NCBI RefSeq assembly: GCF_024300625.1
Contig: NZ_CP101322.1
Location: forward strand, 2,307,992 to 2,371,991
DNA: 64,000 nt
Reading direction: 5' to 3'
DNA from: Halovivax gelatinilyticus
GTDB lineage: Archaea > Halobacteriota > Halobacteria > Halobacteriales > Natrialbaceae
Shown here piece after piece: positions 8,288-42,712 of the stretch. The position numbers and the translations under genes are program-made. Position 1 is the stretch's first letter. Every line of letters begins with the position of its first letter. The notes beneath the pieces were generated by a model. It saw nothing but the letters and a program-made list of their open reading frames with translations, ran no database searches and was not told the DNA's origin.

Positions 8288-8412
8288 GAAATGGTGACCT
8301 ATCCGAAGTCATCAACGTCGTCGATTTGGACATGTGCCGCGTACCGGCCGGTACGGAATCGCTACTCGCGGGCATCGGTGTGGTAGGGCCGGAGAAACCC
8401 GTCGATCGACGG

Positions 8413-19829: not shown

Positions 19830-20813
19830 ATGACGGGTACCGTCACCATCAGCATCGAAGTCGAACTCGGGTGGGGACTCGCACACTGGGGGAAACTGGA
19901 CAAACTGAGCGAGGACCGGCGCGAGGAGACCCGCTACCTCACGCACCTGCTCGAACGCTGTGACGACCACGACGTTCCGATCACGTTCGACGTCGTTGCT
20001 CACCTCTTTCACGACTCGTGCGACGGGCAGCACGACGGTCCGCACGAACACGGCTGGTGGGACGTCGATCCGGGTACCTCCGTCGTCGAGGACCCGGAGT
20101 TCTACGCGCCGGACATGATCGAGTCTATCAGGTCCAGCCTGACGGATCACGAACTCTGTACGCACACGTATTCGCACGTCGAGTGCGACGACGTCGACCC
20201 CGAGGTCGTCGAGTGGGAACTGGATCGAGCCGACGAGATTCACCGCCGACACGGCGTGGCCGAGAGCGAATCGATCGTCCCTCCGCGACACAGCCCGCCG
20301 CCGTCGGCCGTCCTCGCGGACGGCGGCATCGGCGTCAAACGCGTCCCGCACTACCGCGCCGACGGCGAAGAACGCCCGTCGACCCCGGTCGGAAAGCTCT
20401 ACGAGATCCTCTTCGATCGCCACCCCGCGATCGATCCCAGCGAGACGGACGACGTCGTCGAGACCTACAGCACGGAGTACACGTCGTTCGCCGTTCCGTA
20501 CCTTCAGACCGGCACGTACGAACCGCACCCAGTCTATCGGACGATTCCTCGTTCGATTCGTCGCCGCCTCCACGCGTGGAACCTCCGTCGCGGCGTCGAC
20601 GCCGCGGCCGACGGCGATGACGTCCACTTCTGGTGTCACCTCTACGACCTCGCGAACGACGAGCAGTGGCCCCAGATCGACTCGTTTCTCGGCTACCTCG
20701 CGAAACGACGCGACGCCGGCGACGTCGAGATTCGGACCATGCGCGAACTTGGTCGGTCGGCAGACACTACTGACGCCAGACCGGTTCCCATTACAATCGA
20801 CCGGGCGAAGTAG
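19830..20813 (+). CDS. Polysaccharide deacetylase-like (NodB-fold) protein
   Basis: A 327-residue protein related to the polysaccharide deacetylase family. The HTYSHV segment (in CTHTYSHVEC, about residues 110-119) is the H-x3-H zinc motif. The first catalytic motif, usually TFDD, reads ISIEVELGWG, so the usual Asp base is replaced by Glu. The later PPRHSPPPSAVLADGGI segment matches the family's R-x-P region. Probable role: N- or O-deacetylation of a glycan precursor inside the cell; no signal peptide. An AT-rich stretch near 19664 is the best upstream promoter candidate. Confidence 0.7.
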   Translation: MTGTVTISIEVELGWGLAHWGKLDKLSEDRREETRYLTHLLERCDDHDVPITFDVVAHLFHDSCDGQHDGPHEHGWWDVDPGTSVVEDPEFYAPDMIESIRSSLTDHELCTHTYSHVECDDVDPEVVEWELDRADEIHRRHGVAESESIVPPRHSPPPSAVLADGGIGVKRVPHYRADGEERPSTPVGKLYEILFDRHPAIDPSETDDVVETYSTEYTSFAVPYLQTGTYEPHPVYRTIPRSIRRRLHAWNLRRGVDAAADGDDVHFWCHLYDLANDEQWPQIDSFLGYLAKRRDAGDVEIRTMRELGRSADTTDARPVPITIDRAK

Positions 20814-21024: not shown

Positions 21025-22815
21025 ATGCCGGGACAGCGTTCGCCGAAAGCGATGGTTCGCGATCGAATACTCCTCGCAGTCGGCTTTTTCGCACTAACGG
21101 GGGCGATCGTCGGCGCACACAGGTCGCCAGCGAGCGGGTACGAACTGTCGCTGTATTCGCACACGCCAACCGTCGTCTGGGTGCTTCTTGGACTGGCGAT
21201 CAGTCTCTCGCTGGCCGTCGCGGTCGCCACTGCCTCGATCTGGACGCGACGGGTTTCGCTCGGTCTCGGGGCCGGATCGACGCTGGCCGTCGTCGGAATG
21301 CCGGTCCTCAGAGGATACTGGTTCATCTCCGGTGGTGACGCTCACACCCACCTCGGCTGGGCGCGAGGAATGGCGGCGGCCGACTTTCACCCGGCCGAGC
21401 TCCGCTATCCCGGACTTCACACGACGACGATTCTCGTAGAGCGAATCCTCGGCATCGGCCTCGAACAGGCAATGATGCTGGTGATCCTCGCTCTGTGTGG
21501 GCTGTTCGTCGTCTTCGTCTCGCTCTCGACCTCGCGCGTCGTCGATTCCCACCGAAGCGTCGCAATCGGGGTGTTCTCGGCGTGTCTGTTTCTCCCAATC
21601 ACGAATCTGAGCACCTTCACGACGCCGCACCCGATGACCCAGGCGATCCTCGTCTCGTCGTTCGTCGTGTATCTCCTGCTTCGCTACATTCGAACCGAAC
21701 GGTCGGTCTCGGCGCTAGGGGGATTGCTCGCGCTCTCACTCCTCTCTCTGGTGCTCTATCACCCGCAACTGGCGGCCCACCTCCTCGTCGTGTTCGTTGG
21801 AATCTCTCTCGTTCAATTCTACCACCGGCGGGTTCGCCCGTCACACCCGGTTGCGTCACACCGACCGGTCTACGGGCAGACAGTCTTTCTCGGCGGGGCG
21901 TTTCTCGTCTGGTCTATGGGACACGACGTGATCCAGAACGTGATCGGCTTTCACCTCACCTCCACCTTCGAGTACTTCGTCGGCGACGGGGGATCGGCCG
22001 GAGATTCCGTCGATGCGCAGGGCGACTCGCTGACGGCGATCGGTGGAAGCGTCGCCGAAGTCGGATTGAAGCTCCTGGGTCCGGCGCTCGTCTTTTGCCT
22101 TCTCACCGCCGCTGTCGTGGTCTGGCTCTGGCTGGATGTCGGCGACCGATTTCGGCGCGAGACCGACGGGATGATCCACTACTTCGTCGTCGGGCTGATC
22201 GGGCTGAGCGGGCTCTTCGGCATCTACTTCTTCGGATCGGCCGGTCAGATGTACTTCCGTGTTCTCGGGCTCATGATGCTGTTTATCACTATCATCGGAG
22301 CGGTGGCGATTACCTACGCTGCAGACACCGTCTCCCGGATCACCGGATCGACGGCGGTCCACGGTGCTCTCGGCGTCGGGTTCGCGATCCTTCTCGTAGT
22401 GTCGTTGCTCGCGCTCTATCCGTCGCCGTACGTTTACAATCCCTCGACGCACGTAACCGAGGGATCGATGTCCGGTCACGAACTCGCCCTGGAGTCGACG
22501 CCCGCGGATGCGACGTTCGTCGGCATTCGAGCCGGGCCGAATCGATTCGCAGACGCGACGGACCCGCAACTCGACCGGACGAAACGACACGGCGCGATCA
22601 CCGGAGAGGAGATCGACGACGGCATCGCGAGCATCTACGACGAACCTCGCTATCTCAGCGTCACCCGACTGGACTGGGAACGAGAGGTGCGAACGTATCA
22701 GGGCTTGCGCTACTCGGACGAGCAGATCGAGTCCATTCCGCGGCAGGTGGGGGTCAACCGAATACAGACGAACGGCGACGTGACGATCTACTACGTCGAC
22801 GGACAGCAGGCCTGA
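21025..22815 (+). CDS. Polytopic membrane protein, possible GT-C-like glycosyltransferase
   Basis: A 596-residue protein with about 11-12 TM helices across residues 10-470 and a C-terminal soluble domain (about 480-596). An extracytoplasmic loop after the third helix holds GGDAHTHLGWARGMAAADF, acidic/His residues in the position where GT-C enzymes carry their catalytic Asp. Similar proteins in archaeal glycan clusters are annotated as membrane glycosyltransferases or unknown. The role could be transfer of a lipid-linked sugar outside the membrane (inference). No Wzy or AglB WWDYG motif is visible. Confidence 0.6.
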   Translation: MPGQRSPKAMVRDRILLAVGFFALTGAIVGAHRSPASGYELSLYSHTPTVVWVLLGLAISLSLAVAVATASIWTRRVSLGLGAGSTLAVVGMPVLRGYWFISGGDAHTHLGWARGMAAADFHPAELRYPGLHTTTILVERILGIGLEQAMMLVILALCGLFVVFVSLSTSRVVDSHRSVAIGVFSACLFLPITNLSTFTTPHPMTQAILVSSFVVYLLLRYIRTERSVSALGGLLALSLLSLVLYHPQLAAHLLVVFVGISLVQFYHRRVRPSHPVASHRPVYGQTVFLGGAFLVWSMGHDVIQNVIGFHLTSTFEYFVGDGGSAGDSVDAQGDSLTAIGGSVAEVGLKLLGPALVFCLLTAAVVVWLWLDVGDRFRRETDGMIHYFVVGLIGLSGLFGIYFFGSAGQMYFRVLGLMMLFITIIGAVAITYAADTVSRITGSTAVHGALGVGFAILLVVSLLALYPSPYVYNPSTHVTEGSMSGHELALESTPADATFVGIRAGPNRFADATDPQLDRTKRHGAITGEEIDDGIASIYDEPRYLSVTRLDWEREVRTYQGLRYSDEQIESIPRQVGVNRIQTNGDVTIYYVDGQQA

Positions 22816-22908: not shown

Positions 22909-25227
22909 TCAGGGGTGGTCGAGTTCCTCGCCGTCGACGGCGAGCGTGCGGATCTCGGTTTCGCCGTCGTGGTCGTCGATCTCGAGGCTCGTGATCTCGC
23001 CGGTGAACTCCCAGACGGTGCGGGCTTCGTCCGAGCCCGACAGCCACCACTCGGCCCAGTCGTCGCCGTAGGCCTCGCCTTCGGTGAGCCAGCGGGCGTG
23101 CGCCTCTGCGGGCTGAATGTCCCCCGAAACCTCGATCCGGTAGGCGAACTGGCCGGCGACTTCGAGTCGGTGCGGACCATGGTCTTCTTCGCTCTCGTCC
23201 GCGTTTTCGCCTTCGAGGTCGCCGCCGGTCCGTTCGATAAGTTCCTCCTCGCTCACCTCTTCGCCATCGAGTTCGATCCACATGGCGTCGGGTTGGTCGA
23301 CCGAGACGGCCTGGACGGGGCCGTGAACCTCGTAGGCGTCGCCGTGGCCACCGCCGGAGAGCGAGGCGACGGTCGAGAGACCGTCTTCCTCTTCGACGGT
23401 CTCGCGGTGGGCGGCGATGCGCCCGCCGGAGGGACTTTCGTAGGGCGCTTCGGTCGGGACGAGCTCACCCTCGACGGCGAGTTCGTACTCGGCGAGTTCG
23501 GCGTCGGGCTCGGTGACGAACGCGACGAGGTTCGCCTCCGGCGGTTCGTCCGGTTCGTCTTCATCGTCGCCGCTGGTCCGCTCGACGAGTTCTTCCTCGC
23601 TCACCCGCTCGCCGTTGAGTTCGATCCACATGACGTCGGGTTGGTCGACCGAGACGGCCTGGACGGGGCCGTGAACCTCGTAGGCGTCGCCGTGGCCACC
23701 GCCGGAGAGCGAGGCGACGGTCGAGAGACCGTCTTCCTCTTCGACGGTCTCGCGGTGGGCGGCGATGCGCCCGCCGGAGGGACTTTCGTAGGGCGCTTCG
23801 GTCGGGACGAGCTCACCCTCGACGGCGAGTTCGTACTCGGCGAGTTCGGCGTCGGGCTCGGTGACGAACGCGACGAGGTTCGCCTCCGGCGGTTCGTCCG
23901 GTTCGTCTTCATCGTCGCCGCTGGTCCGCTCGACGAGTTCTTCCTCGCTCACCCGCTCGCCGTTGAGTTCGATCCACATGACGTCGGGTTGGTCGACCGA
24001 GACGGCCTGGACGGGGCCGTGAACCTCGTAGGCGTCGCCGTGGCCACCGCCGGAGAGCGAGGCGACGGTCGAGAGACCGTCTTCCTCTTCGACGGTCTCG
24101 CGGTGGGCGGCGATGCGGCCGCCGGAGGGGCTCTCGTAGGGTGCTTCGGTCGGGATCAACTCGCCGTCGACGGCGAGTTCGTACTCGGCGAGTTCGGCGT
24201 CAGGTTCAGTGACGAACGCGACGAGGTGAGCGTCCTCAGGGAACTCCGGCTCGGGTTCGGGTTCCTCGCCGGCCGCGCGACCGCTGGCCGCTGCCTCGGC
24301 GCTCGTCGGGGCGCCGACGTCAGCTGGATCGGTTCGTGGATTGCCGGACGGTGAACCCCTGACATACGACGAACACGAACCGTCGACGGTTCTCGAGACG
24401 TTCGCCCGGCAGTTGTCGAGCGTGAGCTGACTGCACGAGAACGTGTTAGACCACGTGCCGCTGCCATTGTTCCACCCGACGTACTCCGGAGCGTAGACGT
24501 CGCAATTGATGAACTCGACGCCCGCCGAGAAGTAATCGCGAAACGCACGTGGCGTCCCTTTCTGCTGGGGGCCGTCGAGGACGCTGATACAATTGTTGCA
24601 GTACGATCCGTCGGAACCGAGGCGGAAGTTCCACCCGCAGTTTTCGATGTAACTGTCGTAGATGCGAACCGTCCCGCCATCACCCGTCGAGGGGTGGCCG
24701 GGTGGCGAGCCAGGATCGGACGCGTAGATGCCGTTGTCGGGCATCTGGGCGATGTAGGCGTTTCGGATCTCGAGATCGCCTGCGTGATCGTTGTGAACGT
24801 AAATTCCCGTCGGGTTGCCCCAGCTGTGATAGCCGGGCGACTCGGCGCCGGGCAGGTGGATATTCTCGATGCGGATTTTCCCGCTCGAACTCGGCGCACG
24901 AACGGTGAACGGACTCGACGAGGGTTCGTGATCCCACAGCCCTCGGACACCGACGTTTCGGATTGTGGTGTCGTTTCTGTGACAGCGGATGGCGTAGCCC
25001 GCCCCGTCGGCCGTGATATCGATTATCTTGTTCTCCCAGGTTTCGCCCGCCGAGAGCCGTTTGGTGTACGTTTCTCCTGGTCCGACTTCGATTACGTCGT
25101 AGTCGTCGTTGGAAGCCGCTCCGTTCATCGCGAGCGCCGCGACGCCTGTCGCACTCAACGCGGCCTTCAAATACGTTCGGCGATCGAACAGGGTCGCCGG
25201 ATATCGTTCGTTGGAGTCCTCATTCAT
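22909..25227 (-). CDS. Tat-exported beta-helix protein with three A modules and one B module
   Basis: A 772-residue secreted protein. The Tat signal RRTYLKAALSATGVAALA lies near residue 17. Residues about 40-300 form a right-handed parallel beta-helix, pectate-lyase-like (TIRNVGVRGLWDH, GIYVHNDHAGDLEIRNAYI, DNGIYASDPG). Then follow a Glu/Pro linker, three A modules starting near residues 332, 448 and 564 (each 116 residues, LVAFVTEPDAELAEYEL), and one B module from about 686 to the end (LEVAGQFAYRIEVSG, WAEWWLSGSDEARTVWEF). Modules 1 and 2 differ at only three residues. Paralogues at 29190 and 30632 combine the same modules differently. Likely a surface glycan-binding or lyase protein. Confidence 0.85.
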   Translation of the reverse strand: MNEDSNERYPATLFDRRTYLKAALSATGVAALAMNGAASNDDYDVIEVGPGETYTKRLSAGETWENKIIDITADGAGYAIRCHRNDTTIRNVGVRGLWDHEPSSSPFTVRAPSSSGKIRIENIHLPGAESPGYHSWGNPTGIYVHNDHAGDLEIRNAYIAQMPDNGIYASDPGSPPGHPSTGDGGTVRIYDSYIENCGWNFRLGSDGSYCNNCISVLDGPQQKGTPRAFRDYFSAGVEFINCDVYAPEYVGWNNGSGTWSNTFSCSQLTLDNCRANVSRTVDGSCSSYVRGSPSGNPRTDPADVGAPTSAEAAASGRAAGEEPEPEPEFPEDAHLVAFVTEPDAELAEYELAVDGELIPTEAPYESPSGGRIAAHRETVEEEDGLSTVASLSGGGHGDAYEVHGPVQAVSVDQPDVMWIELNGERVSEEELVERTSGDDEDEPDEPPEANLVAFVTEPDAELAEYELAVEGELVPTEAPYESPSGGRIAAHRETVEEEDGLSTVASLSGGGHGDAYEVHGPVQAVSVDQPDVMWIELNGERVSEEELVERTSGDDEDEPDEPPEANLVAFVTEPDAELAEYELAVEGELVPTEAPYESPSGGRIAAHRETVEEEDGLSTVASLSGGGHGDAYEVHGPVQAVSVDQPDAMWIELDGEEVSEEELIERTGGDLEGENADESEEDHGPHRLEVAGQFAYRIEVSGDIQPAEAHARWLTEGEAYGDDWAEWWLSGSDEARTVWEFTGEITSLEIDDHDGETEIRTLAVDGEELDHP
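23205..24235 (-). repeat. Three in-frame tandem repeats of 348 bp (A modules)
   Basis: The unit encodes 116 residues and repeats with a period of exactly 348 bp at about 24235-23888, 23887-23540 and 23539-23205 (minus strand). Large stretches are identical at DNA level between copies, including synonymous positions, which indicates recent duplication or ongoing gene conversion. A fourth, more diverged copy lies in the paralogue at 30632-32515. Confidence 0.9.
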
Positions 25228-25673
25228 ACCACCTGATCGCTAGTTGGTCCGTAGCGTGAACGTTCACGTTCACATGATACATCTATTTATGAGAAGGAAC
25301 GTGCGCACACGAAAGAGTGACAATATATTTTTGTTGTCTTATTCGAGATAGTGTGGCGTAAACTAACAGCTTCTCCGCCCGCCCGCTCGGTTATTTCTGC
25401 CGCCGAATTTGGACCGAAACCGCTGTTTGTCCCCGATCGTGAATAATCCGGGCTGGTGTTTTGAAGACCTGTATTACGCGGTTCGGATGGCTGCTGATTC
25501 TGTCCGTTCAGCGCACCATCACCAGCCGATGGTAGTACGCGATTAACCAATGTAGTCGAACCTGATAGGTCAGTGAGTGATATGAAACCGACGACGAACT
25601 ACATCCGACGTCTTCACCGGTCAGTCACGGCTACGGTAGTCGAAACGCTGGACGGGGTCAGACCGACTGTACG
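25228..25673. other. AT-rich divergent promoter region between beta-helix and flippase genes
   Basis: A 446-bp gap. For the minus-strand beta-helix gene, a TATA-like ATAAATAGAT (complement of 25281-25290) and a perfect palindrome CGTGAACGTTCACG (25255-25268) near the expected transcription start are visible. Another AT-rich block (ATATATTTTTGTTG) lies at 25323-25337. A 87-codon minus-strand frame (25287-25550) has unlikely composition and is not called. No other gene is seen. Confidence 0.5.
25255..25268. promoter_or_regulatory. 14-bp perfect palindrome, candidate operator
   Basis: CGTGAACGTTCACG is a perfect palindrome, followed by a further TTCAC half-site. It lies about 25 bp downstream of a TATA-like box (complement of 25281-25290) and 28 bp before the ATG of the 772-residue beta-helix gene, so a bound protein would block initiation. 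Confidence 0.5.
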
Positions 25674-27137
25674 ATGACCGAACGGGGGCGCTTGCGCTCT
25701 CGCTTTACGTTCGAGTTTGGCGGTCGAATACTCGCGACCACAGCTGGCGGTCTACTGATGGTCGTACTCGCGAGGTTGCTTGGACCCGAGGATTACGGGC
25801 TTCTATTCCTCGCGATCGCCGTGTTCGGTGTGTTGGGGGTGGCTAGCAAACTCGGAATTGCGAAATCCTGTGCCAGATACGTCGCCGAGTACAAAGAGTC
25901 AGATCCAGCGCAACTACCGCACATTCTCCGTGTCGCTCTACTGTTCAATGTAGGCGCCGTCGTCACCGTCTGTGTCGCCCTCTTGATCGGTCACCGACAC
26001 CTGGCTGCGTTCCTCGACGAGCCGTCGTTGACGCCGTTGTTGTTGCTCGGTCTGGGGTACCTCGTCTTCGAGGCGCTGGCGACGTTTGCCAGGCTCGTGT
26101 TGCAGGGGTTAGAGGAGATCGAACTCGCCGCGACCGTCCACGTGACCAATCGAATCACTCGGCTCATCTTCGTCGTCGGGTTCGCCGTCCTCGGTTTCGG
26201 CGCTCTCGGCGCCCTCGTTGGCTACATTATGAGTTTCGCCATCTCGTCGCTGCTCGGCCTCTGGCTCGTCTATCGCTACTGTCTGCGAGGCATCGAACCG
26301 GCGACCTCAGTCGAATCCGGGCTGAAACGCCGCATCGGTGAATACACCGTGCCACTGACGGCGACGAGTACGGCGAACGTCCTCGACAAGCAAATCGACA
26401 CCGTCCTCGTAGGCCTGTTTCTCTCGCCGATCGCCGTCTCCGCGTACGTCCTCAGCAAACAGATCGTCGAATTCCTCGAGGCACCCGTTTCGGCGCTCGG
26501 GTTCACCCTTTCGCCCACGTTTGCCGCGCAGAAAGCCGACGGGAATACGGATCGGGCAGCGCGCCTCTACGAAACCGCGCTCACTCATGCGTTGTTACTG
26601 TACGTGCCCGCCGCGGCTGGACTCGTCCTCGTCGCTGAACCAACTATCACCCTCGTCTTCGGGTCCGACTATCTGGGCGCGGTTCCCGTATTGCAGGTGC
26701 TCTCGCTGTACGCGATCTTGTTGTCCGTCACGAAGATAACGAGCAACGCGCTCGATTTCCTCGGGCGTGCGAAGGCTCGAGCGATCGTTAAGGGTTCGAC
26801 GGCCCTGTTGAACGTCGCCTTGAACCTCGTGTTGATCCCGCTGATCGGCGTCGTCGGCGCCGCAATCGCCACGGTGATCACCTACTCGATCTACACCGGG
26901 GCGAATCTCTATATTATCCACCGGGAACTCGATTTGCGCCTCGGACTGGTCGCCCGAAGAACCGGGGCGATCATCGGTGTGGCTGCGGTGATGACCGGTA
27001 CCATCTACCCGATGTACGGTAGCATCGATGGCTGGCCATCCCTACTTGGAGTCGTCCTGTTCGGTGTCGTCGTGTGGGCGCTGTGCTCACAACTGGCCGG
27101 ACTCCTCGAACTTCCACGAACCCAGATCAACTCATGA
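25674..27137 (+). CDS. Oligosaccharide flippase, MATE/Wzx-like (paralogue 1)
   Basis: A 487-residue polytopic membrane protein of the polysaccharide-biosynthesis (Wzx/RfbX) family, with about 12-14 TM helices. Conserved segments are ARLLGPEDYGLLFLAIAVFG near the N-terminus, SCARYVAEYKESD after the second helix, and PLTATSTANVLDKQIDTVLVG at the start of the second half. It should flip a lipid-linked glycan across the membrane. The stop overlaps the ATG of the next gene by 4 bp (ATGA), so the two are translationally coupled. A paralogue is at 34381-35850. Confidence 0.85.
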   Translation: MTERGRLRSRFTFEFGGRILATTAGGLLMVVLARLLGPEDYGLLFLAIAVFGVLGVASKLGIAKSCARYVAEYKESDPAQLPHILRVALLFNVGAVVTVCVALLIGHRHLAAFLDEPSLTPLLLLGLGYLVFEALATFARLVLQGLEEIELAATVHVTNRITRLIFVVGFAVLGFGALGALVGYIMSFAISSLLGLWLVYRYCLRGIEPATSVESGLKRRIGEYTVPLTATSTANVLDKQIDTVLVGLFLSPIAVSAYVLSKQIVEFLEAPVSALGFTLSPTFAAQKADGNTDRAARLYETALTHALLLYVPAAAGLVLVAEPTITLVFGSDYLGAVPVLQVLSLYAILLSVTKITSNALDFLGRAKARAIVKGSTALLNVALNLVLIPLIGVVGAAIATVITYSIYTGANLYIIHRELDLRLGLVARRTGAIIGVAAVMTGTIYPMYGSIDGWPSLLGVVLFGVVVWALCSQLAGLLELPRTQINS

Positions 27138-29020
27138 CACAAACGTATCCCTTCACGACCGAACGTGCGGACCGACCATCCACCGAAATACTCGTCTGCC
27201 CGGACTGTTCGGACCGTGTTTCACTCCGACAGCAATCCTGTACGGGTTGTGAGACGACGGTGATCGATCTCCAGGGCGTTATCTCGTTCACCGAGGACGA
27301 CCATCGTGGAGATGTTCCCGATCACGATGTCGACCTCGCTTCGTTTACCGACGCGCTCCGATCGAACTCGATGCGCACGGCCATCGACCACGTCGCTATC
27401 GACGCCAGTGAGTGCGAGACGTTCCTGACAGATCTCCTTGACGTCCGCCGCGACGTCTGGCACGCGCTCGTAGACGGCCACATTAGTGGACGCTGTCTCG
27501 ATCTCTACGCAGGGTACGGTCGACGTTCGATTGCCCTTTCGGCGCGTGCTGAATCCGTCCACGCTGTCGATCCGTCCCTGTCGAAACTCACGATCGCCTC
27601 GCTACGCGAAGACGCACCGAGGCACAGTCGTATCGTCCCGGTACACACCGAACTGAACCGGTTACCGTTCGCCCCGGCTTCATTCGATACCATCGTCGTG
27701 GATCTCTCGGGCCGATCGAACGTGAAAGAGACGCTACGGGAGCTTTCGCCCTATCTCAGAGACGGCGGCTCTCTCCTCGCTATCGTGGATGGCTGGTCGA
27801 AGAGAACCGGGATCGCGTCACTTGCGGGTCTCGTGAGCGACGAGGTACGTCTGTCGAGTGGCGTGCGTCCCGGAACGCCGAGCGGCTATCGATCCGTTGC
27901 GTCCGATCTCGGCTTCGACGCGTGTTCCGTCTATGCGCTATTCCCGAGCGCGTCGCGCCCACTCTACGCGTACGAAGTCGGCTGTGACCGTGCGTCCCGG
28001 TGGCTGTTCGAATCGGAACTGCCGAATCGGGATCGACTCGCATCGGCGATCGATCCGGTTCTTCCGCTGGTCCGGAACAGCGGCATTCTCGAAGGGAGCC
28101 TGCCGAGTTACCTCCTCGCGTGCTCGAAGACGCCGACACGCGACGCTCCGTCGAGATTCGACGCACCGGTTGCTGTTGCTGGTCGCGCCCGATCCGTCGT
28201 TCTCGACGTCGGGGTAGACGGTATCACCGACGTCTGGAAGCTTCCGAATCGTCCCGGACACGCACTGCTCACGGAGCGGGAAAATTCGCTGTTGTGGCGG
28301 CTCCACGAACTAGATGTCGACGTGACCGAGACGCTTCCCGATGGCGAACCGGTCGAGTCTCCGATCGGAGTAGCCCGCCACGAACGTCCTGTTCGTGGGC
28401 GGCCGCTCGACGAGTCACTCGCCGATCACCCCGACGACTTCGAACAGGTCCTCGAAACCGGATACGAGTGGCTAGCGTCGTTCCAGCGAACCGTTCGCGG
28501 TGACTCGATCGAACGATCACCGACGTCGGTTCGTGACGAACTCTCATTCGACCCCGCCGGCGTGGACCCGCCCCAGATCGAGACACCCGTTGTAACGTTC
28601 GAAACGCCGATTCATGGCGACTTCATCGCCCGTAACATCCACGTCGAGAACGGATCGATAACCGGCGTAATCGATTGGGAGTACGGTATTCCAGACGGGT
28701 GTCCGGTCGTCGATGCGGGCCGTCTCTTGATAGATGCGGCCCTTCAGACCGTTGGCGACTTCGATGGGGCTGTTCGCACCGTACTCTGTGGGGATACCGA
28801 GTACGCAGTTCGAGCGAGAGCGGCCGTTCAGGAGTACTGTGATGCGGTCGATCTGCCATACCGAACCTTCGAACGGTGTCTTCCGGCGACGTACGTCCAC
28901 CGCCTCGAACTCGACTTCCAGGTCGATGCCCCGAGCACGTACGGGTCGCGCGTGGCGGAGCGAGCCCGACGCGCGCAACGTCTCGCCGACTCTGTGGGAG
29001 AGATGACACTATCGGTGTGA
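27134..29020 (+). CDS. Zinc ribbon-methyltransferase-APH-type kinase fusion
   Basis: A 628-residue three-domain protein. Residues about 22-39 form a zinc ribbon (CPDC ... CTGC). Residues about 115-270 are a class I SAM-dependent methyltransferase: CLDLYAGYGRRSIALSA (motif I, about 121-137), HAVDPSLSK (motif II), FDTIVVDLSG and YLRDGGSLLAIVDG. The C-terminal half, from about 350, is an aminoglycoside phosphotransferase/choline-kinase-like domain with the Brenner motif HGDFIARN (about 494-501) and GVIDWEYG (about 512-519). The ATG overlaps the flippase stop by 4 bp. A methyltransferase plus kinase in one chain recalls bacterial WbdD, which caps O-antigen chains with a methylphosphate; this role is inferred. 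An ATG further upstream (27074) is less likely. Confidence 0.75.
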   Translation: MTQTYPFTTERADRPSTEILVCPDCSDRVSLRQQSCTGCETTVIDLQGVISFTEDDHRGDVPDHDVDLASFTDALRSNSMRTAIDHVAIDASECETFLTDLLDVRRDVWHALVDGHISGRCLDLYAGYGRRSIALSARAESVHAVDPSLSKLTIASLREDAPRHSRIVPVHTELNRLPFAPASFDTIVVDLSGRSNVKETLRELSPYLRDGGSLLAIVDGWSKRTGIASLAGLVSDEVRLSSGVRPGTPSGYRSVASDLGFDACSVYALFPSASRPLYAYEVGCDRASRWLFESELPNRDRLASAIDPVLPLVRNSGILEGSLPSYLLACSKTPTRDAPSRFDAPVAVAGRARSVVLDVGVDGITDVWKLPNRPGHALLTERENSLLWRLHELDVDVTETLPDGEPVESPIGVARHERPVRGRPLDESLADHPDDFEQVLETGYEWLASFQRTVRGDSIERSPTSVRDELSFDPAGVDPPQIETPVVTFETPIHGDFIARNIHVENGSITGVIDWEYGIPDGCPVVDAGRLLIDAALQTVGDFDGAVRTVLCGDTEYAVRARAAVQEYCDAVDLPYRTFERCLPATYVHRLELDFQVDAPSTYGSRVAERARRAQRLADSVGEMTLSV

Positions 29021-29189
29021 TCGGACGAGACTCTGCCTCGACGACCGACGATCTACCACGTCCACGGTCATGGGTCCGACAGCGCTCCAGTCGAGGAACT
29101 CGGCGGATCTCGGTGACCCGGAGAACCCGCTAGTCCCGATCGACGCGATCTCGGGGCCGGCCCGACCACCGGTCGAGTTCCGGTTCGAT

Positions 29190-30398
29190 TCAGACCGGAT
29201 CGATCGATTCGCCGTCGACGGCGAGCGTGCGGATCTCGGTTTCGCCGTCGTGATCGTCGATCTCGAGGGTGGTGATCTCGCCGGTGAACTCCCAGGCGGT
29301 CCGGGCTTCGTCCGACCCGGAGAGCCACCACTCGGCCCAGTCGTCGCCGTAGGCGTCTCCTTCTTCGAGCAACTCGGCGTGTTCTGCGGCCGGACGAATC
29401 TTCTCAGTGACCTCGATTCGGTAGGCGAATTGTCCTGCGACGTCGAGCGTTCGAGGCTCGTGAGGGTCTTCGACCCCACCGCCGTTCGCCGCTTCTTCGG
29501 CCGTCCGCGGACAGCCCTCGGGGATGGAGTCCCACGGCACGCCCGCCGAGGTCCCGCTGACGCTCGACGATCTCGCGCCGCCGTGGGCGGTTTCTGACTC
29601 CCATCGCGCATCGACCATCGTCAGCGAGGCGTCGTCGGATTTGTTCCAGACGGCGTCGCCGAGTGCGAGGTCGCTCTCGTGTCCGCCGATGTCACAGTCG
29701 ACGATCTCGGCGTCCTCGTAAAACTGCCAGTGCCCGCGCTGGGAGCCGCCCGCGGCGCAGCTGTTCTCGAGCGTCGACCCGCGGGTTCCGAGCCGAAAGT
29801 TCGAGACGTCGTTGTTCTTCGCGTAGGAATTTCTGATCGCGACCGTCCCGCCAGCCCCGGGGATCGGGTGCTGGTTCGAATTTCCCGGTCCGGAGGCGTA
29901 GATGCCGTTGTCGGTCCAGTTCTGGACGTTGACACGGTCTATCTCCAGGTGACCGGCGTGGTCCCAGTAGACGTAGAGACCGGTCGCGTTCCCGTCCCCG
30001 CAGGTGACGTCGAGACAGACGTTCTCGATGGTTCCCGTCCCGTCTGGATCGGTCACCCGAGCGCGAAACGGTTCTGCGTGTCCACCCTCGAAGTGGCCGG
30101 TGATTCCGACGTTGCGGATCGTCCAGTCGGTTCCGTCGGCCTGGATGTCGTAGACGGCCCCGGGTTCGGAGATGTCGATCAGGACGTTCTCCCACGTTTC
30201 ACCGCTTCCGACGGTCTTTCGGAACGTTTCGCCGGCGCCCACGGTGATCGTCTCGTAGTCCGTCGCGGCGGCGACTCGCCCGCTCGCCCCGTTCAACAGT
30301 CCGAACGATCCCAGCATCGCACCGGCGCCGAGAAGGTATCCGCGTCGACTCGTTTCACGTGTGTCAGTACGTCGATCGGTCGCGTCAGCTTCGTCCAT
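29190..30398 (-). CDS. Tat-exported beta-helix protein with one B module
   Basis: A 402-residue paralogue of the proteins at 22909 and 30632, the shortest of the three. The twin-arginine signal is SRRGYLLGAGAMLGSFGLL near residue 18. The beta-helix spans about residues 45-290 (TIRNVGITGHFEGGH, GIYASGPGNSNQHP, NFRLGTRGSTLENS). A single B module runs from about residue 314 (LDVAGQFAYRIEVTEKI) to the end (ETEIRTLAVDGESIDPV). The ATG at 30398 is preferred over GTG 30422 because it gives a normal Tat n-region. A TATA-like GCAATATACC (minus strand) lies near 30452-30461. Confidence 0.8.
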   Translation of the reverse strand: MDEADATDRRTDTRETSRRGYLLGAGAMLGSFGLLNGASGRVAAATDYETITVGAGETFRKTVGSGETWENVLIDISEPGAVYDIQADGTDWTIRNVGITGHFEGGHAEPFRARVTDPDGTGTIENVCLDVTCGDGNATGLYVYWDHAGHLEIDRVNVQNWTDNGIYASGPGNSNQHPIPGAGGTVAIRNSYAKNNDVSNFRLGTRGSTLENSCAAGGSQRGHWQFYEDAEIVDCDIGGHESDLALGDAVWNKSDDASLTMVDARWESETAHGGARSSSVSGTSAGVPWDSIPEGCPRTAEEAANGGGVEDPHEPRTLDVAGQFAYRIEVTEKIRPAAEHAELLEEGDAYGDDWAEWWLSGSDEARTAWEFTGEITTLEIDDHDGETEIRTLAVDGESIDPV

Positions 30399-30631
30399 TC
30401 GTCTCTCCGGAACGGTGGACACCCCTAACCAGTTGAGCTTCAGGTGTTGATGGTATATTGCCCAGTGGATACTCTCGTCGCCTGTTAACTAGGCGCCACT
30501 GTGGTACGTTCGCATTCGTTCGCGGGGGCGGTCCAAGGCGGGGTGGCTCCGGTACACCGTAGATTCTGCCCCGGCCCACCCGCCCAGTCCCGGTCCGATT
30601 CAGACCGGATCGATGTTCGGGCGGAACTCCT

Positions 30632-32515
30632 TCAGGGACGGTCGAGTTCCTCGCCGTCGACGGCGAGCGTTCGAATCTCGGTCTCTCCGTCGTAGTCGTC
30701 GATCTGGAGGTTCGTTATATCGCCCGTGAACTCCCAGACGGTTCGCGCCTCGTCCGAGCCCGACAGCCACCACTCCGCCCAGTCGTCGCCGTAGGCATCG
30801 CCCTCGGAGAGCCACTGCGCGTGGGCGTCAGTCGGTCGAATCTCGCCGGAGACGTCGACGCGATATTCGAACTGGCCGGCGACTTCGAGTCGGTGCGGGC
30901 CATCGTCCTCTTCGACGTACTCGCTGTGGTCGAGTTCCTCGCCGTCGATGGCGAGCGTGCGGATCTCGGTTTCGCCGTCGTGATCGTCGATCTCGAGAGT
31001 CGTGATCTCGCCGGTGAACTCCCAGACCGTCCGTGCCTCGTCCGAACCGGAGAGCCACCACTCGGCCCAGCCGTCGCCGTAGGCGTCTCCTTCCTGAAGC
31101 CAGCGGGCGTGCGCCTCGGCGGGCTGAATCTCGCCAGAGACCTCGATCCGGTATTCGAACTGACCGGCGACCTCGAGGGTGGACGGTCCGTCGTCTTCGT
31201 CCTCGTCGCCGCCAGTTCGCTCGATCAGCTCTCCCTCGCTCACCCGTTCGCCGTCGAGTTCGATCCACATGGCGTCGGGCTGGTCGACGGTGACGTCGCG
31301 GACGGGACCGTGAACCTCGTAGGCGTCGCCGTGGCCGCCGCCCGATAGCGAGGCGACGGTCGAGAGGCCGTCCTCTTCTTCGACGGTCTCGCGGTGGGCG
31401 GCGATGCGGCCACCGGAGGGACTCTCGTAGTGTGCTTCGGTCGGAACCAACTCGCCGTCGACGGCCAGTTCGTACTCGGCGAGTTCGGCGTCGGGTTCGG
31501 TGACGAACGCGACGAGGTGGGCGTCCTCGGGCAACTCCGGCTCCGGTTCGGGTTCTTCGCTGGCCGAGCCACCGTTCGCGGCCGCTTCGGCGCTCGTCGG
31601 ACAACCCGCCGGGACGCGATCTCGGGGGCTTCCGACCGACGAGCCGTTGATGTTCGAACGCGTGTTGCCGCCGTGGGCGGCTTCGGTCTCCCACCGCGAC
31701 CCGGTGAGCGAGACGCGCGCCCTGTCGGCTTTCGACCACGCCGAGTCGCCGACGGCGACGTCGCTGCCGTTCGATCCCAGGTCGGAGTCGTACACGTCGG
31801 TCTCCTCGTAGGCGGCCCACAGCCCGCGGTGGCGGCCGCCGACGGCCACGCAGTTGTCGAGGTACGAACCCGTGCTGCCGAGTCGGTACGCGGACGTGTT
31901 GCAGTCTTTGACGTAGGAGTTAGAGATGTGGACCTCGCCGCCGTGACCGGGGGTCGGGTGCGCGCTGGAGTTACCCGGCTCGCTCGCGTAGAAGCCGTTG
32001 TCCGGGAAGTTCTGCATGTAGATGCGATCCATCTCGAGGGTGCCGACGTGGTTCGGCCAGACGTAGATACCCGTCTCGCCGTGGTGTTCGCCCGAACTAC
32101 GCCGCGTTCGGGTCGTCACCTCGAAGCAGACGTTCTCGATCACGCCGGTGCCATTCGAATCGGTTACGCGCACCCTGAACGGGTCTTCGTTCCGGCCCGT
32201 ATCTTCCAGGTGGCCGCGGATGCCGACGTTCCTGATCGCCCAGTTCGAACCGGACGCGCTGATGTCGTAGCGCGCGCCGGATGCGGAGACATCGAGCAGG
32301 ACGTTCTCCAGTGTGTCACCGCTACCGAGTCGAATCGTGTGGGTCTGGCCGGACGGAACGACGATCTCCTCGTATCCGTCGTCGCCCGACGCCGCGGCGC
32401 TTCCCGCGTTCAGGAGAGCGAGCGAGCCGATGAGCGAGCCAGCACCGAGTAAGTACGATCGACGGCTGGTTTCGTTCCCGACCGACTGTCGGTCGGACGA
32501 GTGTGTCTCTTTCAT
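30632..32515 (-). CDS. Tat-exported beta-helix protein with one A and two B modules
   Basis: A 627-residue paralogue. Tat signal SRRSYLLGAGSLIGSLALL near residue 18. Beta-helix at about residues 45-310 (AIRNVGIRGHLED, GIYVWPNHVGTLEMDRI, DNGFYASEPGNSSAHP). A Glu/Pro linker is followed by an A module from about 332, then two B modules from about 443 and 541. The A module begins at the same residue number as in the 772-residue protein, so the N-terminal part is colinear and only the tail differs. The ATG at 32515 is preferred to the upstream start at 32560, which lies within the putative promoter (TATA-like CTATATAAG, complement of 32569-32577). Confidence 0.85.
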   Translation of the reverse strand: MKETHSSDRQSVGNETSRRSYLLGAGSLIGSLALLNAGSAAASGDDGYEEIVVPSGQTHTIRLGSGDTLENVLLDVSASGARYDISASGSNWAIRNVGIRGHLEDTGRNEDPFRVRVTDSNGTGVIENVCFEVTTRTRRSSGEHHGETGIYVWPNHVGTLEMDRIYMQNFPDNGFYASEPGNSSAHPTPGHGGEVHISNSYVKDCNTSAYRLGSTGSYLDNCVAVGGRHRGLWAAYEETDVYDSDLGSNGSDVAVGDSAWSKADRARVSLTGSRWETEAAHGGNTRSNINGSSVGSPRDRVPAGCPTSAEAAANGGSASEEPEPEPELPEDAHLVAFVTEPDAELAEYELAVDGELVPTEAHYESPSGGRIAAHRETVEEEDGLSTVASLSGGGHGDAYEVHGPVRDVTVDQPDAMWIELDGERVSEGELIERTGGDEDEDDGPSTLEVAGQFEYRIEVSGEIQPAEAHARWLQEGDAYGDGWAEWWLSGSDEARTVWEFTGEITTLEIDDHDGETEIRTLAIDGEELDHSEYVEEDDGPHRLEVAGQFEYRVDVSGEIRPTDAHAQWLSEGDAYGDDWAEWWLSGSDEARTVWEFTGDITNLQIDDYDGETEIRTLAVDGEELDRP

Positions 32516-32830: not shown

Positions 32831-34300
32831 ATGAGTGAACGTGATCCCAACGTATTCGTCCTGACCGTCGACTCGCTTCGGTGGGACGCCTACGATCGAT
32901 TGATGTCTGAGGTCGGCGAGGTCGTCCCGGGCACGACGTTCACCCGGGCGTTCGCGACGGCGAGCAACACCGGGAGTTCGATGCCGACGCTGGCGGCGGG
33001 CGTCTACTGCGACGAAGTGGCCGACGGCACGCCGAACCTGGACCTCGGCGAGACGAGCGAGGACGACGGCCTCACGACGCTTGCCGAGGCGCTCTCGGCG
33101 GCCGGATACGACGCCTCCCTCTGGAGTGACAACGTCATCTTCGGCGAGGCGCGAAACTACGATCGGGGCTTTAGCGACGGTCGGACCGGGACGCCGAGCT
33201 GGAAGAAGCGCGCGCAGACCGTCGTCCAGGGAACCGGCTCGGCTCGGCTGTTCAACGCCTGTCGCTGGGCGTACTTCAACGTCTTCGACCGAATCGAATC
33301 GACCCTCTCCTCGAATTCCAGCTACTACGTCCCGGCGAAAACGCACCACCAATCGGTTCTCGACGCGCTCTCGGGAACGGACGGCGGCCAGGCTCACTGG
33401 ATCCACTACATGGACGTCCACCACCCGTTCGAACCGCCCGCCGAGTACCTGGCCAAGCGTGATCTCAACGCGCCGCGGCGGCCGGCGGAACTCGCGGAAC
33501 TCTCCTCGTCTGCCATCATCCAGAACGCGGGCGGCGAGACGACGCACGGGGACGTCGAAGACATCGAGCAGGCCTACCTGGCCGCATGCGAACACCTCCG
33601 CGACGAACTCGTCTCGTTCGTCGAGACGCTTCGCGACCGGGGTCACTACGACCCGGGCCACGACGTGCTGGTACTCACCGCAGACCACGGCGAGGGGTTC
33701 GACCGCGACCTCCACGGCATGCTCGGGCACACGCCGACCCCGGCGTTCTGGGACGACCTCGTCCACGTCCCGCTGCTCGTCTCGCTTCCCGACTGGGAGC
33801 ACGAGCGGGTCGACTACCAGGTGAGTCTGATCGACGTCGTCCCGACGATTCTGTCTGCGCTCTCCCTGTCGGTTCCGGACTCGTGTCAGGGCGTGGCCGC
33901 CTCGTCACCAGCGGAGCTCCACCGCTCGCACGTCTACTTCACGGCGACCGGTCCCTACCGATCCTATCACGGCGTTCGTAACGAACACGGCTGGAAGCTG
34001 TTCGCCGACCGCATCAGCGAGTCGAGCGGGATCGAACTCATGGGGACCGACGAGCGCGACGACCACGAACGCGTCCTGCTCACGACGGTCGACGACGGCG
34101 AGGAGACGATCCGCTACGAGCGATCGCTCGACGAAGATGGGGTGCCGACGGAATCGACGGCGTCGACGCGCTGGCGCGGCTTACACGAACGGCTGTCCGA
34201 CCAGCGCGGCGGGGTCGCCACTCGACGGTTCGACGCCCAGCTCTCGGCGGAGACCGTCGAACAGTTAGAACAGCTCGGCTACGTCGACAACGTCCGGTGA
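32831..34300 (+). CDS. Sulfatase-like alkaline phosphatase superfamily protein without the usual sulfatase motif
   Basis: A 489-residue protein of the sulfatase/phosphoglycerol-transferase branch. It begins FVLTVDSLRWDAYD (metal-site Asp), has VLTADHGEGFDRDLHGMLGHT for the second metal site and a late VSLIDVVPTILSALSL. True sulfatases have C/S-x-P-x-R for formylglycine formation; here the segment is SNTGSSMPTLAAG, without the Arg and with a Ser/Thr nucleophile. A phosphotransferase or phosphodiesterase role on a surface polymer is more likely than sulfate removal. No signal peptide is seen. It is followed by a flippase gene 80 bp downstream. Confidence 0.8.
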   Translation: MSERDPNVFVLTVDSLRWDAYDRLMSEVGEVVPGTTFTRAFATASNTGSSMPTLAAGVYCDEVADGTPNLDLGETSEDDGLTTLAEALSAAGYDASLWSDNVIFGEARNYDRGFSDGRTGTPSWKKRAQTVVQGTGSARLFNACRWAYFNVFDRIESTLSSNSSYYVPAKTHHQSVLDALSGTDGGQAHWIHYMDVHHPFEPPAEYLAKRDLNAPRRPAELAELSSSAIIQNAGGETTHGDVEDIEQAYLAACEHLRDELVSFVETLRDRGHYDPGHDVLVLTADHGEGFDRDLHGMLGHTPTPAFWDDLVHVPLLVSLPDWEHERVDYQVSLIDVVPTILSALSLSVPDSCQGVAASSPAELHRSHVYFTATGPYRSYHGVRNEHGWKLFADRISESSGIELMGTDERDDHERVLLTTVDDGEETIRYERSLDEDGVPTESTASTRWRGLHERLSDQRGGVATRRFDAQLSAETVEQLEQLGYVDNVR

Positions 34301-34380: not shown

Positions 34381-35850
34381 ATGCCGATCAGCACCGAACA
34401 GATTCGAGATATCAAGGCGTCGTTCGTCGCTCGAATCGTCCACACGGTGACGAACGGGCTCCTCGTCGTCGCGCTCGCGAGTTACCTCCTCGGACCCGAC
34501 GAGTACGGATTGCTGTTTCTGGTACTCTCGATACTGGTGGTGGCGCAGGTGTTCGCCGACCTGGGCGTCTCCCGATCGGCCGCGCGGTACGTCTCGGAGT
34601 ACAAGGAGACCGATCCCGGACAGGTTCCACACATCGTCCGCGTCTCGCTCGCGTTTCGGGTGATGATGCTCGCCGTCGTCTGTCTCGCGGTCGTACTCGC
34701 CCGACCGTGGATCGCGGCGGTGCTCGACGAACCCGCGCTGGCCTCGTTGCTCGTCGTCGGCGTCTGCTACCTGGCGTTCAAGTCGCTGACGGCCTACCAC
34801 GTCGGCCTCTTTCAGGGATTCAGTCGACTCGAGTACAGCGCGGCGGTCGGCATCGTCGACAACGTCGGCCGACTCGTCTTCGTCGTCGGGTTCGTCGCCC
34901 TCGGCTTCGGGGTGGTCGGAGCGCTCGCCGGCTACGTCGTCGGGGCGGTGCTCGCGACGGCGCTCGGGCTCGCGATCCTGTACTGGAAGTGCTACCGCCC
35001 CTGCGAGCGAGCCGAACGGGCGGAGCCCGGACTCAAACGCCGCATCCTCGAGTACAGCGTCCCGCTGACGGCCTCCGAGAGTGCGAACGTCGTCGATCGC
35101 CGGGTCGACATTCTCCTGGTCGGGTTCTTCCTGACGCCGGCCGCCGTGGGATTCTACACCCTCGCAAAGCAGATCACGGAGTTCGTCGAGGCGCCCGCGG
35201 GCTCCGTCGGGTTCGCCCTCTCGCCGGCCTACGGCGAGGAGAAGGCGAGAGATCGACTCGATCACGCGGCCCGGATCTACGAAACCTCGTTCTCGTACGT
35301 CCTCTTGCTGTACGTTCCGGCAGCCGTCGGCATGGTCCTGCTCGCCGAACCGGGGATCACGATCGTCTTCGGCGACGAGTACGCCGGAGCGGTGCCCGTC
35401 CTCCAGATACTCTCGCTCTTCGTGCTCTTTAAGGCGATAAACAGCATCACGACCCAGTCGATCGACTACCTCGGTCGCGCCAGAACGCGCGCCATCGTCA
35501 AGGGCATCACCGCCGCGGGGAACGTCGCGTTGAACATCGTGCTCATCCCGACGATGGGCCTCGTCGGGGCGGCGATCGCGACCGTCGTGACGTTCGGCGC
35601 CTACACGCTGGCGAACGTCGCCATCATGCACGCCGAGTTGCCGATCCGAACGAAACGGTTCGTCGGCGTCGCCGCGGGCACGACGGCCATCTCGATCCTG
35701 ATGGGCTTTGTCGTCCTCGCGCTCGCACCGTTCATCTCCGGCTACCTCACGCTGTTCGGCGTCGTCGGCGTCGGCGTCGGGATCTGGGCGGCGCTCGTCA
35801 CCGCGACCGGCCTGGTCGACCTGCGCGAATCGATCGCGACCTTCGTCTGA
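34381..35850 (+). CDS. Oligosaccharide flippase, MATE/Wzx-like (paralogue 2)
   Basis: A 489-residue polytopic membrane protein closely similar to the flippase at 25674-27137: SYLLGPDEYGLLFLVLSIL, RSAARYVSEYKETDPGQVPH and PLTASESANVVDRRVDILLVG correspond segment by segment. About 12-14 TM helices. It should translocate a lipid-linked glycan. It lies in a same-strand run with the sulfatase-like gene upstream and the DUF354 gene downstream. Two flippases in one region suggest two lipid-linked substrates or a recent duplication. Confidence 0.85.
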   Translation: MPISTEQIRDIKASFVARIVHTVTNGLLVVALASYLLGPDEYGLLFLVLSILVVAQVFADLGVSRSAARYVSEYKETDPGQVPHIVRVSLAFRVMMLAVVCLAVVLARPWIAAVLDEPALASLLVVGVCYLAFKSLTAYHVGLFQGFSRLEYSAAVGIVDNVGRLVFVVGFVALGFGVVGALAGYVVGAVLATALGLAILYWKCYRPCERAERAEPGLKRRILEYSVPLTASESANVVDRRVDILLVGFFLTPAAVGFYTLAKQITEFVEAPAGSVGFALSPAYGEEKARDRLDHAARIYETSFSYVLLLYVPAAVGMVLLAEPGITIVFGDEYAGAVPVLQILSLFVLFKAINSITTQSIDYLGRARTRAIVKGITAAGNVALNIVLIPTMGLVGAAIATVVTFGAYTLANVAIMHAELPIRTKRFVGVAAGTTAISILMGFVVLALAPFISGYLTLFGVVGVGVGIWAALVTATGLVDLRESIATFV

Positions 35851-38736: not shown

Positions 38737-40010
38737 CCTCGAATCGCGTTATCCACCAACGCCGGATCGCCGCCGTCGATCGGCGTCGCTTCGGTCTCGT
38801 CCACCTCGTCGAACGCAGAAAGCAGCGCACTCGGCGTACCGACCCAGGCGCCCAGTTCCTGAGCGCGTTCGACGAGCCAGCGGTAGAGCCACCGGTGGCC
38901 CGGAAACTCGCGCTCGTTGAAGTACCGGGGGTGCCAGAGTACGGTCATGACGGCCTCGTTCGCAGCCGCTTCGAGCAGGAGTTCCTCGCAGGTCATCCGG
39001 GCCGCCTCGGGCTTTCGGTCCGGATCGGGCAGCGCCTGCTCCATGATCGTGAGCGGGAAGACGCGAAAGTCGTCGCCGAACGGCCTGATCGGCCGGTAGC
39101 CGTTGTGAAAACCACACCGGGTGCCGGAGCCGAGGCTGGCGTCGTATCGCAGCCCGATCTCCCGGTGATGGCGCCACGTCTCGGGGATCGAACACCGGAG
39201 GTAGTGCTGACGGCCGCCGACGACCGCGGAATCGATGTCCGCCGACAGGCCGTCGATACCTTCGTCCACCGATCGACCATCGATATCGACGTCCGCCGAC
39301 CGACTGCCGGTACCTTCGTCCGCCGAGTGGCCGTCGGTCTCGGCGTCCGTCGCCTCTTCGGCATCCATCTCTTCGAGGATCGATTCGAGCACGTCCACCT
39401 CGTGGGCGAGGCGGTCCCGGTCCAGTGCGGAGTGGTACGAGCCGTGAAGACCGACCTCCCACCCGCCTTCGGCCAGCGACCGAATCGCCTCGGCGACGTC
39501 CGAACTCGCCGGATCGTACCGGCCGAGGTGTTGAACCCAGTTCGTCGGTGAGAGCCAGTCGCGAACCGGTCGTTCCGAAAGCAGGTGCTGCTCGTTGAGG
39601 AAGTAAAACGCGGAGCGAACCCCGAGTTCGGCTTCGAGGTCGGCGATCTCCTCGAACTGCCAGTAGGGGTTTTCTCCCGATACCAGCGTCTTCAGGTGGT
39701 AGCCAGAGCGCTCCGCCAGACCGTAGTACAGCGAGCGAATTCCCTTGTACGGCCGGTCGACGTCGTGGGTGAGACACAGCGCGAACGCGGCGTCGTCGGG
39801 TAACGGCGACCAGTCCCAGCACGCGTCCGGCGGGAGACTGGGTTCGTCTTCGAGCGGCCGCTCGATCGTCTCTCCCGGCGAACCGGTGGCGTTCGTCCCG
39901 TCTCGATCCGATCGACGGCCGAGCGCGACCTGTTCTGCCGACTCGCGCTCGACCGGGTTCGGCAGTCGGCCGAACGGGGACACTGTGCGGTTCGAACCTG
40001 ACTCACGCAT
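38700..40010 (-). CDS. Polysaccharide deacetylase family protein with low-complexity insertion
   Basis: A 436-residue protein with deacetylase motifs CLTHDVDRPYKG (catalytic Asp region, about residue 80) and VGLHGSYHSALD (H-x3-H, about residue 193), plus MTVLWHPRYFNE near the C-terminus. Between the H-x3-H motif and the next core strand lies an Asp/Ser/Gly-rich insert of about 45 residues with repeated (S)VDEGIDG/ADxDID units. The first 60 residues are also low-complexity. The last residues (GPKGREPRIGER) are encoded by a 69-bp direct repeat. The ATG overlaps the stop region of the upstream epimerase gene by 8 bp, so they form an operon. Confidence 0.8.
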   Translation of the reverse strand: MRESGSNRTVSPFGRLPNPVERESAEQVALGRRSDRDGTNATGSPGETIERPLEDEPSLPPDACWDWSPLPDDAAFALCLTHDVDRPYKGIRSLYYGLAERSGYHLKTLVSGENPYWQFEEIADLEAELGVRSAFYFLNEQHLLSERPVRDWLSPTNWVQHLGRYDPASSDVAEAIRSLAEGGWEVGLHGSYHSALDRDRLAHEVDVLESILEEMDAEEATDAETDGHSADEGTGSRSADVDIDGRSVDEGIDGLSADIDSAVVGGRQHYLRCSIPETWRHHREIGLRYDASLGSGTRCGFHNGYRPIRPFGDDFRVFPLTIMEQALPDPDRKPEAARMTCEELLLEAAANEAVMTVLWHPRYFNEREFPGHRWLYRWLVERAQELGAWVGTPSALLSAFDEVDETEATPIDGGDPALVDNAIRGPKGREPRIGER

Positions 40011-42464: not shown

Positions 42465-42712
42465 GCTGTTGAACCGTTCTGACGGTGCGAGAAACACGGG
42501 GTTAGTAACGAACGCCATTCCCGATCGTCCGCCGACGCGATCCGTCGAGACGGGTCGGGTATGTGGCGAGTAACCGAGGTCATCCGGCCCGAACGACGTC
42601 CGTTCGTCGGCCCCGTTACGCCTCGTTGAGCGCGAAACGGCCCTCGCGGTCGCACGCGACGAGGTGGTAACCGTCGCCTTCGCCCCGCTGACTCACCCGG
42701 CTCCCGTCCAGT

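Follow-up and report, generated by a model that had tools for sequence, protein, structure and literature searches.

Three neighbouring genes on the chromosome of Halovivax gelatinilyticus encode proteins that begin alike and end differently, and this locus raises the question of what such proteins do and how their tails came to differ. We examined it within a stretch of 64,000 nt (the window), which is part of a 3.70-Mb chromosome assembled as one contig. A first-pass annotation of the same DNA had described three paralogues with Tat signals, a common beta-helix and C-terminal tails built from two modules, A-A-A-B, B, and A-B-B, and the open reading frames, the residue positions, and the DNA repeats all agree with this description (table 1).

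Table 1. Features of the Halovivax gelatinilyticus window discussed in the text (positions are those of the window)
Feature	Position	Strand	Basis or remark
Polysaccharide deacetylase family protein	19830..20813	+	PF01522
596-aa multi-pass membrane protein, candidate polymerase or GT-C-type transferase	21025..22815	+	Commonest neighbour of helix proteins
P1, 772 aa: Tat signal, beta-helix, A-A-A-B	22909..25227	-	
P1 module B	22912..23172	-	DNA repeats, residue positions
P1 module A3	23233..23529	-	DNA repeats, residue positions, unit comparison
P1 module A2	23581..23877	-	Chimera: first 243 nt as A3, last 240 nt of the 348-nt unit as A1
P1 module A1	23929..24225	-	DNA repeats, residue positions, unit comparison
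P1 beta-helix domain, residues 45-316	24280..25095	-	Profile match; homologous domain predicted by AlphaFold
Wzx-type polysaccharide flippase	25674..27137	+	PF13440/PF01943
P2: Tat signal, beta-helix, B	29190..30422	-	
P2 module B	29193..29453	-	Residue positions; AlphaFold model
P2 beta-helix domain, residues 58-315	29478..30251	-	AlphaFold model; VIA-align Z up to 18.8
P3, 627 aa from ATG: Tat signal, beta-helix, A-B-B	30632..32515	-	
P3 module B2	30635..30889	-	Residue positions
P3 module B1 (WAEWWLSG strand)	30923..31177	-	Residue positions; predicted A-B model
P3 module A	31220..31516	-	Residue positions; predicted A-B model
P3 beta-helix domain, residues 48-316	31568..32374	-	Profile match
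Sulfatase-family protein	32831..34300	+	PF00884
Second Wzx-type polysaccharide flippase	34381..35850	+	
UDP-GlcNAc 2-epimerase and GT2 glycosyltransferase, same island	40003..42518	-	

A beta-helix common to three exported paralogues

P3 is encoded upstream of P2, on the strand that P2 also uses and with a gap of about 210 bp between them, and P2 comprises 410 residues if translated from a GTG or 402 from an internal ATG. The DNA repeat finder returned four A copies of 300 nt (89-97% identical) and four B copies of 292 nt (77-85% identical). The A modules of P1 begin at residues 335, 451, and 567 and that of P3 at residue 334, an offset of one residue instead of the identical number first reported; module B starts at residues 688 of P1, 326 of P2, and 447 and 543 of P3. 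A second locus of the same genome, at 3.22 Mb, encodes a helix-B-B protein (531 aa) and a tailless helix (311 aa). A weak A-module match elsewhere (G000:C1:2714913) was dropped, as it falls inside a substrate-binding protein of an unrelated operon.

The AlphaFold model of P2 (P2 and 68 relatives; pLDDT 90.1, mostly 93-98 in the helix part) is a right-handed parallel beta-helix, and we assign the N-terminal domains of P1-P3 to this fold class on the strength of the prediction. With VIA-align, 353 chains matched the P2 helix model at a Z score of at least 8; AlgE4 (Z 18.8, rmsd 3.1 over 223 residues), PL6, PL1, PL9, and GH28 enzymes, and phage tail spikes are tied at Z 17-19 with no winner, and these matches are at the level of the fold only. 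The same holds for Foldseek, whose best E-value against the PDB was 4.5e-3, and a profile search of PDB chains with the helix gave no convincing sequence match. P1-P3 have their general fold class in common with the Pfam Beta_helix (PF13229) and NosD-type beta-helix proteins, but P2 reaches only 13.4 bits against the curated PF13229 cut-off of 25.9, and P1 and P3 have no match to this family. Other sub-threshold Pfam and NCBIfam matches (e.g., PF04863 and NF052250) were judged to be due to chance. We found no characterised homologue of the helix, and no paper naming the helix/module family in the open-access subset of the literature.

The helices of P1-P3 share 42-53% amino-acid identity pairwise, with dS values of 0.9-1.2, near synonymous saturation; their common helix is real but old. 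Of 158 helix domains, 99% keep the twin-arginine pair of their Tat signal, and P1-P3 are accordingly predicted to be Tat substrates. Ten polar positions (N79, D83, R103, N104, E133, N134, N172, Y175, R210, and R229 in P2 numbering) are 94-100% conserved in the same 158 domains. These near-invariant residues are retained by P1-P3 and occur alike in helices with modules (105) and in naked ones (53). Such conserved polar positions along the helix have the appearance of a working groove, while a scan of 196 helix proteins for motifs revealed no recognised catalytic one.

One module family in ordered, recombining tails

Modules A and B had been described as two modules, and several observations argue against their being unrelated. 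An iterated profile begun with the four A copies picks up B modules, and the converse also holds; because iterated profiles may drift, the better evidence of homology is the direct comparison together with the fold. Profiles of the A and B clades aligned with hhalign at a probability of 74-82% and a score of 32-34, compared with 23.7 for the highest-scoring one among 100 column shuffles and 11.7 for a reversed profile. The predicted structure of the P3 A-B pair (pLDDT 89.7) displays A and B as separate foldable units with the same strand order, and not as parts of one fixed domain, in line with the modular description of the tails. A core of the form LSG...[YW]E[VF]xGx[VI]...DGE is common to both; B also includes an aromatic-rich strand, WAEWWLSG, and the linkers between modules are short and acidic. 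Sequence comparison and models together indicate that A and B are two subfamilies of one small beta-sandwich family. Neither Pfam nor NCBIfam yielded a match above cut-off for this family, and 62 two-module stretches were without a Pfam family above cut-off. Module fold searches gave nothing above noise (best Z 4.6, an archaeal chitin-binding domain), so that a glycan-binding role rests on the company that their partners provide. Copies of A share 91-98% amino-acid identity (dS 0.07-0.43) and copies of B 74-91% (dS 0.41-1.10), and both are under purifying selection (dN/dS about 0.1-0.3), a pattern more in keeping with a varying valency toward one ligand than with a shift in specificity.

The module family extends beyond the P1-P3 trio. 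Relatives were detected with the A profile in 99 of the 391 genomes of the class (E-value at most 0.01) and with the B profile in 19 genomes (E-value at most 0.001). Their carriers include S8 subtilases (loci L099, L109, L110, L124, L137, and L138), some with a PPC-like end, an S8 protein with a GH26 domain (L131), a PL14 polysaccharide lyase (L112), a VWA-PKD protein (L115), a CE4-type deacetylase on a viral contig (L218), and, at a Halovivax locus (L051), a PF14099-like lyase whose match (E-value 5.6e-5) is under the curated cut-off. Given the subtilases and the VWA-PKD protein, the ligand need not be a polysaccharide. In the subtilases of L109, L124, L137, and L138, the A modules sit between the catalytic domain and the PPC-like end. 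At L051 (positions 7841-9829; Halovivax G208), an A-B tail is joined to a different, lyase-like N-terminal domain in the same type of locus.

Further module combinations were searched for in related genomes and found, and architectures differ between paralogues and between species. In five Halovivax genomes, that of the window included, the comparison gave AAAB, B, and ABB at the window locus and BB and 0 (no module) at the other locus of the same genome; AABB, BB, and 0 and BBB, 0, and 0 in G043; AB, B, and 0 and B and 0 in G208; ABB and A and BB and 0 in G101; and ABB and BB, 0, and 0 in G071, so that the related genomes display the tails 0, A, B, BB, BBB, AB, ABB, and AABB. In a single well-supported helix clade (100/99), P2 with its B tail falls together with two proteins of G208, one ending in B and one tailless, and with the ABB proteins from G071 and G101, which indicates that tails changed on one helix lineage. 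The idea of combinatorial shuffling therefore stands insofar as module number and type vary, but the combination is not free. Over all proteins collected, adjacent pairs were cc (183), Ac (20), AA (16), BB (10), and AB (6), c being another module, and A precedes B or c at 26 of 26 junctions; since BA and cA were never seen, A always lies toward the partner domain and B or c at the end. Moreover, in several Halovivax proteins the first B modules and the last ones fall into two distinct groups that span species, which implies that BB tails are in part passed on as ordered pairs. A naked helix lies close to a modular one in 50 of 109 loci (e.g., L172, L176, L179, and L184-L189), and this recurrent pairing suggests that the two forms work together.

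The A modules of P1 carry a footprint of recombination. DNA identity between P1 and P3 climbs from about 0.3-0.5 to 0.73-0.97 some 90 nt upstream of A. Within P1, A1 and A2 differ at 12 sites confined to the first 108 nt, whereas the 30 differences between A2 and A3 all fall after position 243; A2 is identical to A3 on its 5' side and to A1 on its 3' side, has no private base, and shares with both a 136-nt identical tract. An exact chimera of this kind is the outcome that one unequal crossover in an A-A-B gene would give, and such an event would be very recent. An assembly-graph loop would yield the same A3/A1 chimera, and the missing private bases and the 136-nt tract common to all three units are what such an artefact would produce; we nonetheless consider it improbable, given that the genome is a single contig and that AA and AAA tails exist in other genomes, and it would concern the crossover alone. 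The four A copies of this genome cluster apart from those of the sister species with modest support (81/73). The single A of P3 was rejected as the reciprocal product of the P1 crossover, as it has 22 private differences.

Gene neighbourhood, viral relatives, and comparable systems

Across Natrialbaceae, the helix proteins are located in polysaccharide export loci. P1-P3 are surrounded by the genes listed in table 1, together with a GNAT protein and glycosyltransferases. The 596-aa membrane protein has no Pfam family above cut-off, contains a GDAHTHLGW motif, and recurs next to helix proteins in many Natrialbaceae. In a GTDB scan, 47 of the 77 helix loci had a relative of it no farther than about 6 kb away, whereas by our own estimate chance would place one in about 1% of such stretches, the loci not being independent; where present, it occurs in just 1-3 copies per genome. 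Between P1 and P2 (27074-29020), a methyltransferase domain and an APH-like kinase domain are fused in one protein, an unusual arrangement.

Relatives of the helix are also encoded by viruses. The 134-kb IMG/VR contig IMGVR_UViG_3300021446_000176 contains three consecutive helix-family ORFs (L216: 2709-4736, 4740-5699, and 5703-6989; E-values 2.6e-32 to 1.2e-15) flanked by tape-measure and tail genes and a baseplate wedge gene. Elsewhere on the same contig (L218: 5842-9098), a helix protein with an apparent signal sequence adjoins a four-module polysaccharide deacetylase, and a second viral contig (L217) encodes a tail-fibre-like protein with the helix. P2 and the viral helix matched none of 50,697 annotated phage records, and a BFVD fold search returned generic viral beta-helix proteins only. 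We rejected P1-P3 as virion tail-spike proteins: their genes lie in a chromosomal polysaccharide locus and have Tat signals, and only relatives occur in viral tail regions.

The nearest parallel in organisation is provided by the mannuronan C-5 epimerases (AlgE) of Azotobacter, clustered and secreted enzymes that carry one to four R-modules after a beta-helix module; these R-modules bind alginate, have an influence on processivity, and are also found on a lyase, AlyA3 (PMC4444821). Both systems comprise clustered secreted paralogues with a variable count of small modules after the beta-helix (the active module in AlgE), both have accessory modules that occur on another enzyme too, and R-modules group by position, as do the first and last B modules of several Halovivax proteins; AlgE4 is moreover among the best fold matches of the P2 helix. 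Yet R-modules are calcium-binding beta-rolls whereas A and B are predicted beta-sandwiches, and P1-P3 are archaeal and Tat-exported. The catalytic motif of AlgE is of the YG-x-D/E-PH type. No such motif was found in any of the 196 helix proteins, and RTX-type nonapeptides are absent from the window proteins, with isolated matches in 3 of the 196 relatives; we therefore excluded P1-P3 from the AlgE family.

Another parallel is WceF of Pantoea stewartii, a glycosidase with a phage tailspike fold encoded in an exopolysaccharide cluster (PMC7949094). Like P1-P3, it is a beta-helix protein that resembles viral tail spikes and belongs to the cell's own exopolysaccharide cluster, and its structure (6tgf) is among the Foldseek matches of the P2 helix. 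WceF is, however, a tailspike-type trimer for which no repeated beta-sandwich modules are described, and we found no sequence relation between it and P1-P3. As for the modules, the C-terminal extension of halolysin (SptA), which helps substrate binding at high salt (PMC3158780), is likewise a beta-rich C-terminal domain on secreted haloarchaeal enzymes, but it has two conserved cysteines, unlike A and B. Neither module profile gave a match at an E-value of 10 or below in 38 candidate frames near S8 peptidase genes (halolysin-like proteins of two Natrinema genomes), and we discarded this assignment.

A proposed role in modifying the cell's own polysaccharide

We favour the view, with a probability of roughly 0.55, that P1-P3 are secreted modifiers of the cell's own polysaccharide, AlgE-like in their working but outside the AlgE family. 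The homology of the modules, their ordered variable architectures, the recombination footprint, the cluster linkage, and the Tat motif are established, and the fold is predicted. The proteins would be exported folded via Tat and would have as their extracellular target the polysaccharide that the surrounding cluster makes and exports. The beta-helix would be the active part, whether lyase-, epimerase-, or hydrolase-like, or would at least offer a glycan-binding groove, while the C-terminal modules, A beside the helix and B or c at the end, may add contacts to the same polymer or matrix, their number setting avidity and retention. Paralogues would come to differ as tails are gained, lost, or exchanged, and as unequal crossover takes place within near-identical module DNA. 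Such a role is suggested by the adjoining flippases, deacetylase, sulfatase-family protein, GT2, and UDP-GlcNAc 2-epimerase and by the linked 596-aa protein; by the conserved polar residues, the fold matches to glycan enzymes, and the presence of modules on lyases, a deacetylase, and subtilases; and by the tails varying in one helix clade, the A2 chimera, and the helix relatives between viral tail and baseplate genes. Against it speak the helix, which showed no recognised catalytic motif, no characterised homologue, and PDB matches at fold level only; the module folds, which matched nothing above noise; the modules on subtilases and on a VWA-PKD protein; and the many naked helices that do their work with no module.

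The proteins had initially been viewed as surface proteins of varying ligand-binding valency. Module number and type do vary, and purifying selection fits a varying valency for a putative ligand; as to a surface location, no membrane or S-layer anchor was seen, and this, along with the location in polysaccharide export loci, makes secreted polysaccharide-modifying proteins likelier. We regard it as rather unlikely that P1-P3 are non-enzymatic adhesins of the surface or matrix, in which the helix would be a rigid stalk or a lectin and the modules binding heads whose number sets adhesive valency. Modules that differ in number under purifying selection, the aromatic-rich strand of B, and a helix devoid of a textbook catalytic motif would all suit adhesins, but near-invariant polar residues along 158 helices, those of module-free proteins included, and the lack of a cell anchor would not, and clear enzymes carry the modules as well. 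The occurrence of one module family on partners as unrelated as subtilases, a VWA-PKD protein, and lyases, with short, acidic linkers, also recalls anchors or salt-stable spacers by which secreted proteins would be attached to the S-layer or matrix whatever their substrate. This seems improbable to us, since a plain spacer would not need the order observed at every junction, and the naked helices found beside modular ones would be left anchorless.

The three tandem ORFs in a viral tail region, and the signal-bearing helix protein beside a four-module deacetylase on the same contig, raise the further prospect that the helix proteins are viral tail spikes since domesticated by cells, or else decoys that serve in virus defence by modifying the receptor glycan. 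We consider this very doubtful because the cellular family found is far larger, is tied to polysaccharide export genes, and has Tat signals. The same observations could also belong to a joint reading, speculative at this stage and in our opinion improbable, in which a single glycan-active toolkit serves both haloarchaea and their viruses, namely a beta-helix, Tat-exported in the exopolysaccharide loci of cells and placed in the tail region of viruses, plus a recombining beta-sandwich cassette that cells and viruses alike join to different enzymes. If that were true, module number would be a fast, reversible means of tuning coat remodelling against viruses.

On the reading that we favour, secreted modification of the cell's own polysaccharide, these data bear on a process of which little is known, the assembly and modification of archaeal exopolysaccharides (PMC9943897). 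The helix family is a widespread candidate for an extracellular modification step, tied to two recurrent neighbours, a flippase and the 596-aa membrane protein. Its module family, absent from Pfam and NCBIfam matches, also tags proteases and lyases across Halobacteria, and the natural series, which runs from no module to 6 on a single kind of helix, offers a way to measure the effect of repeated modules at high salt.
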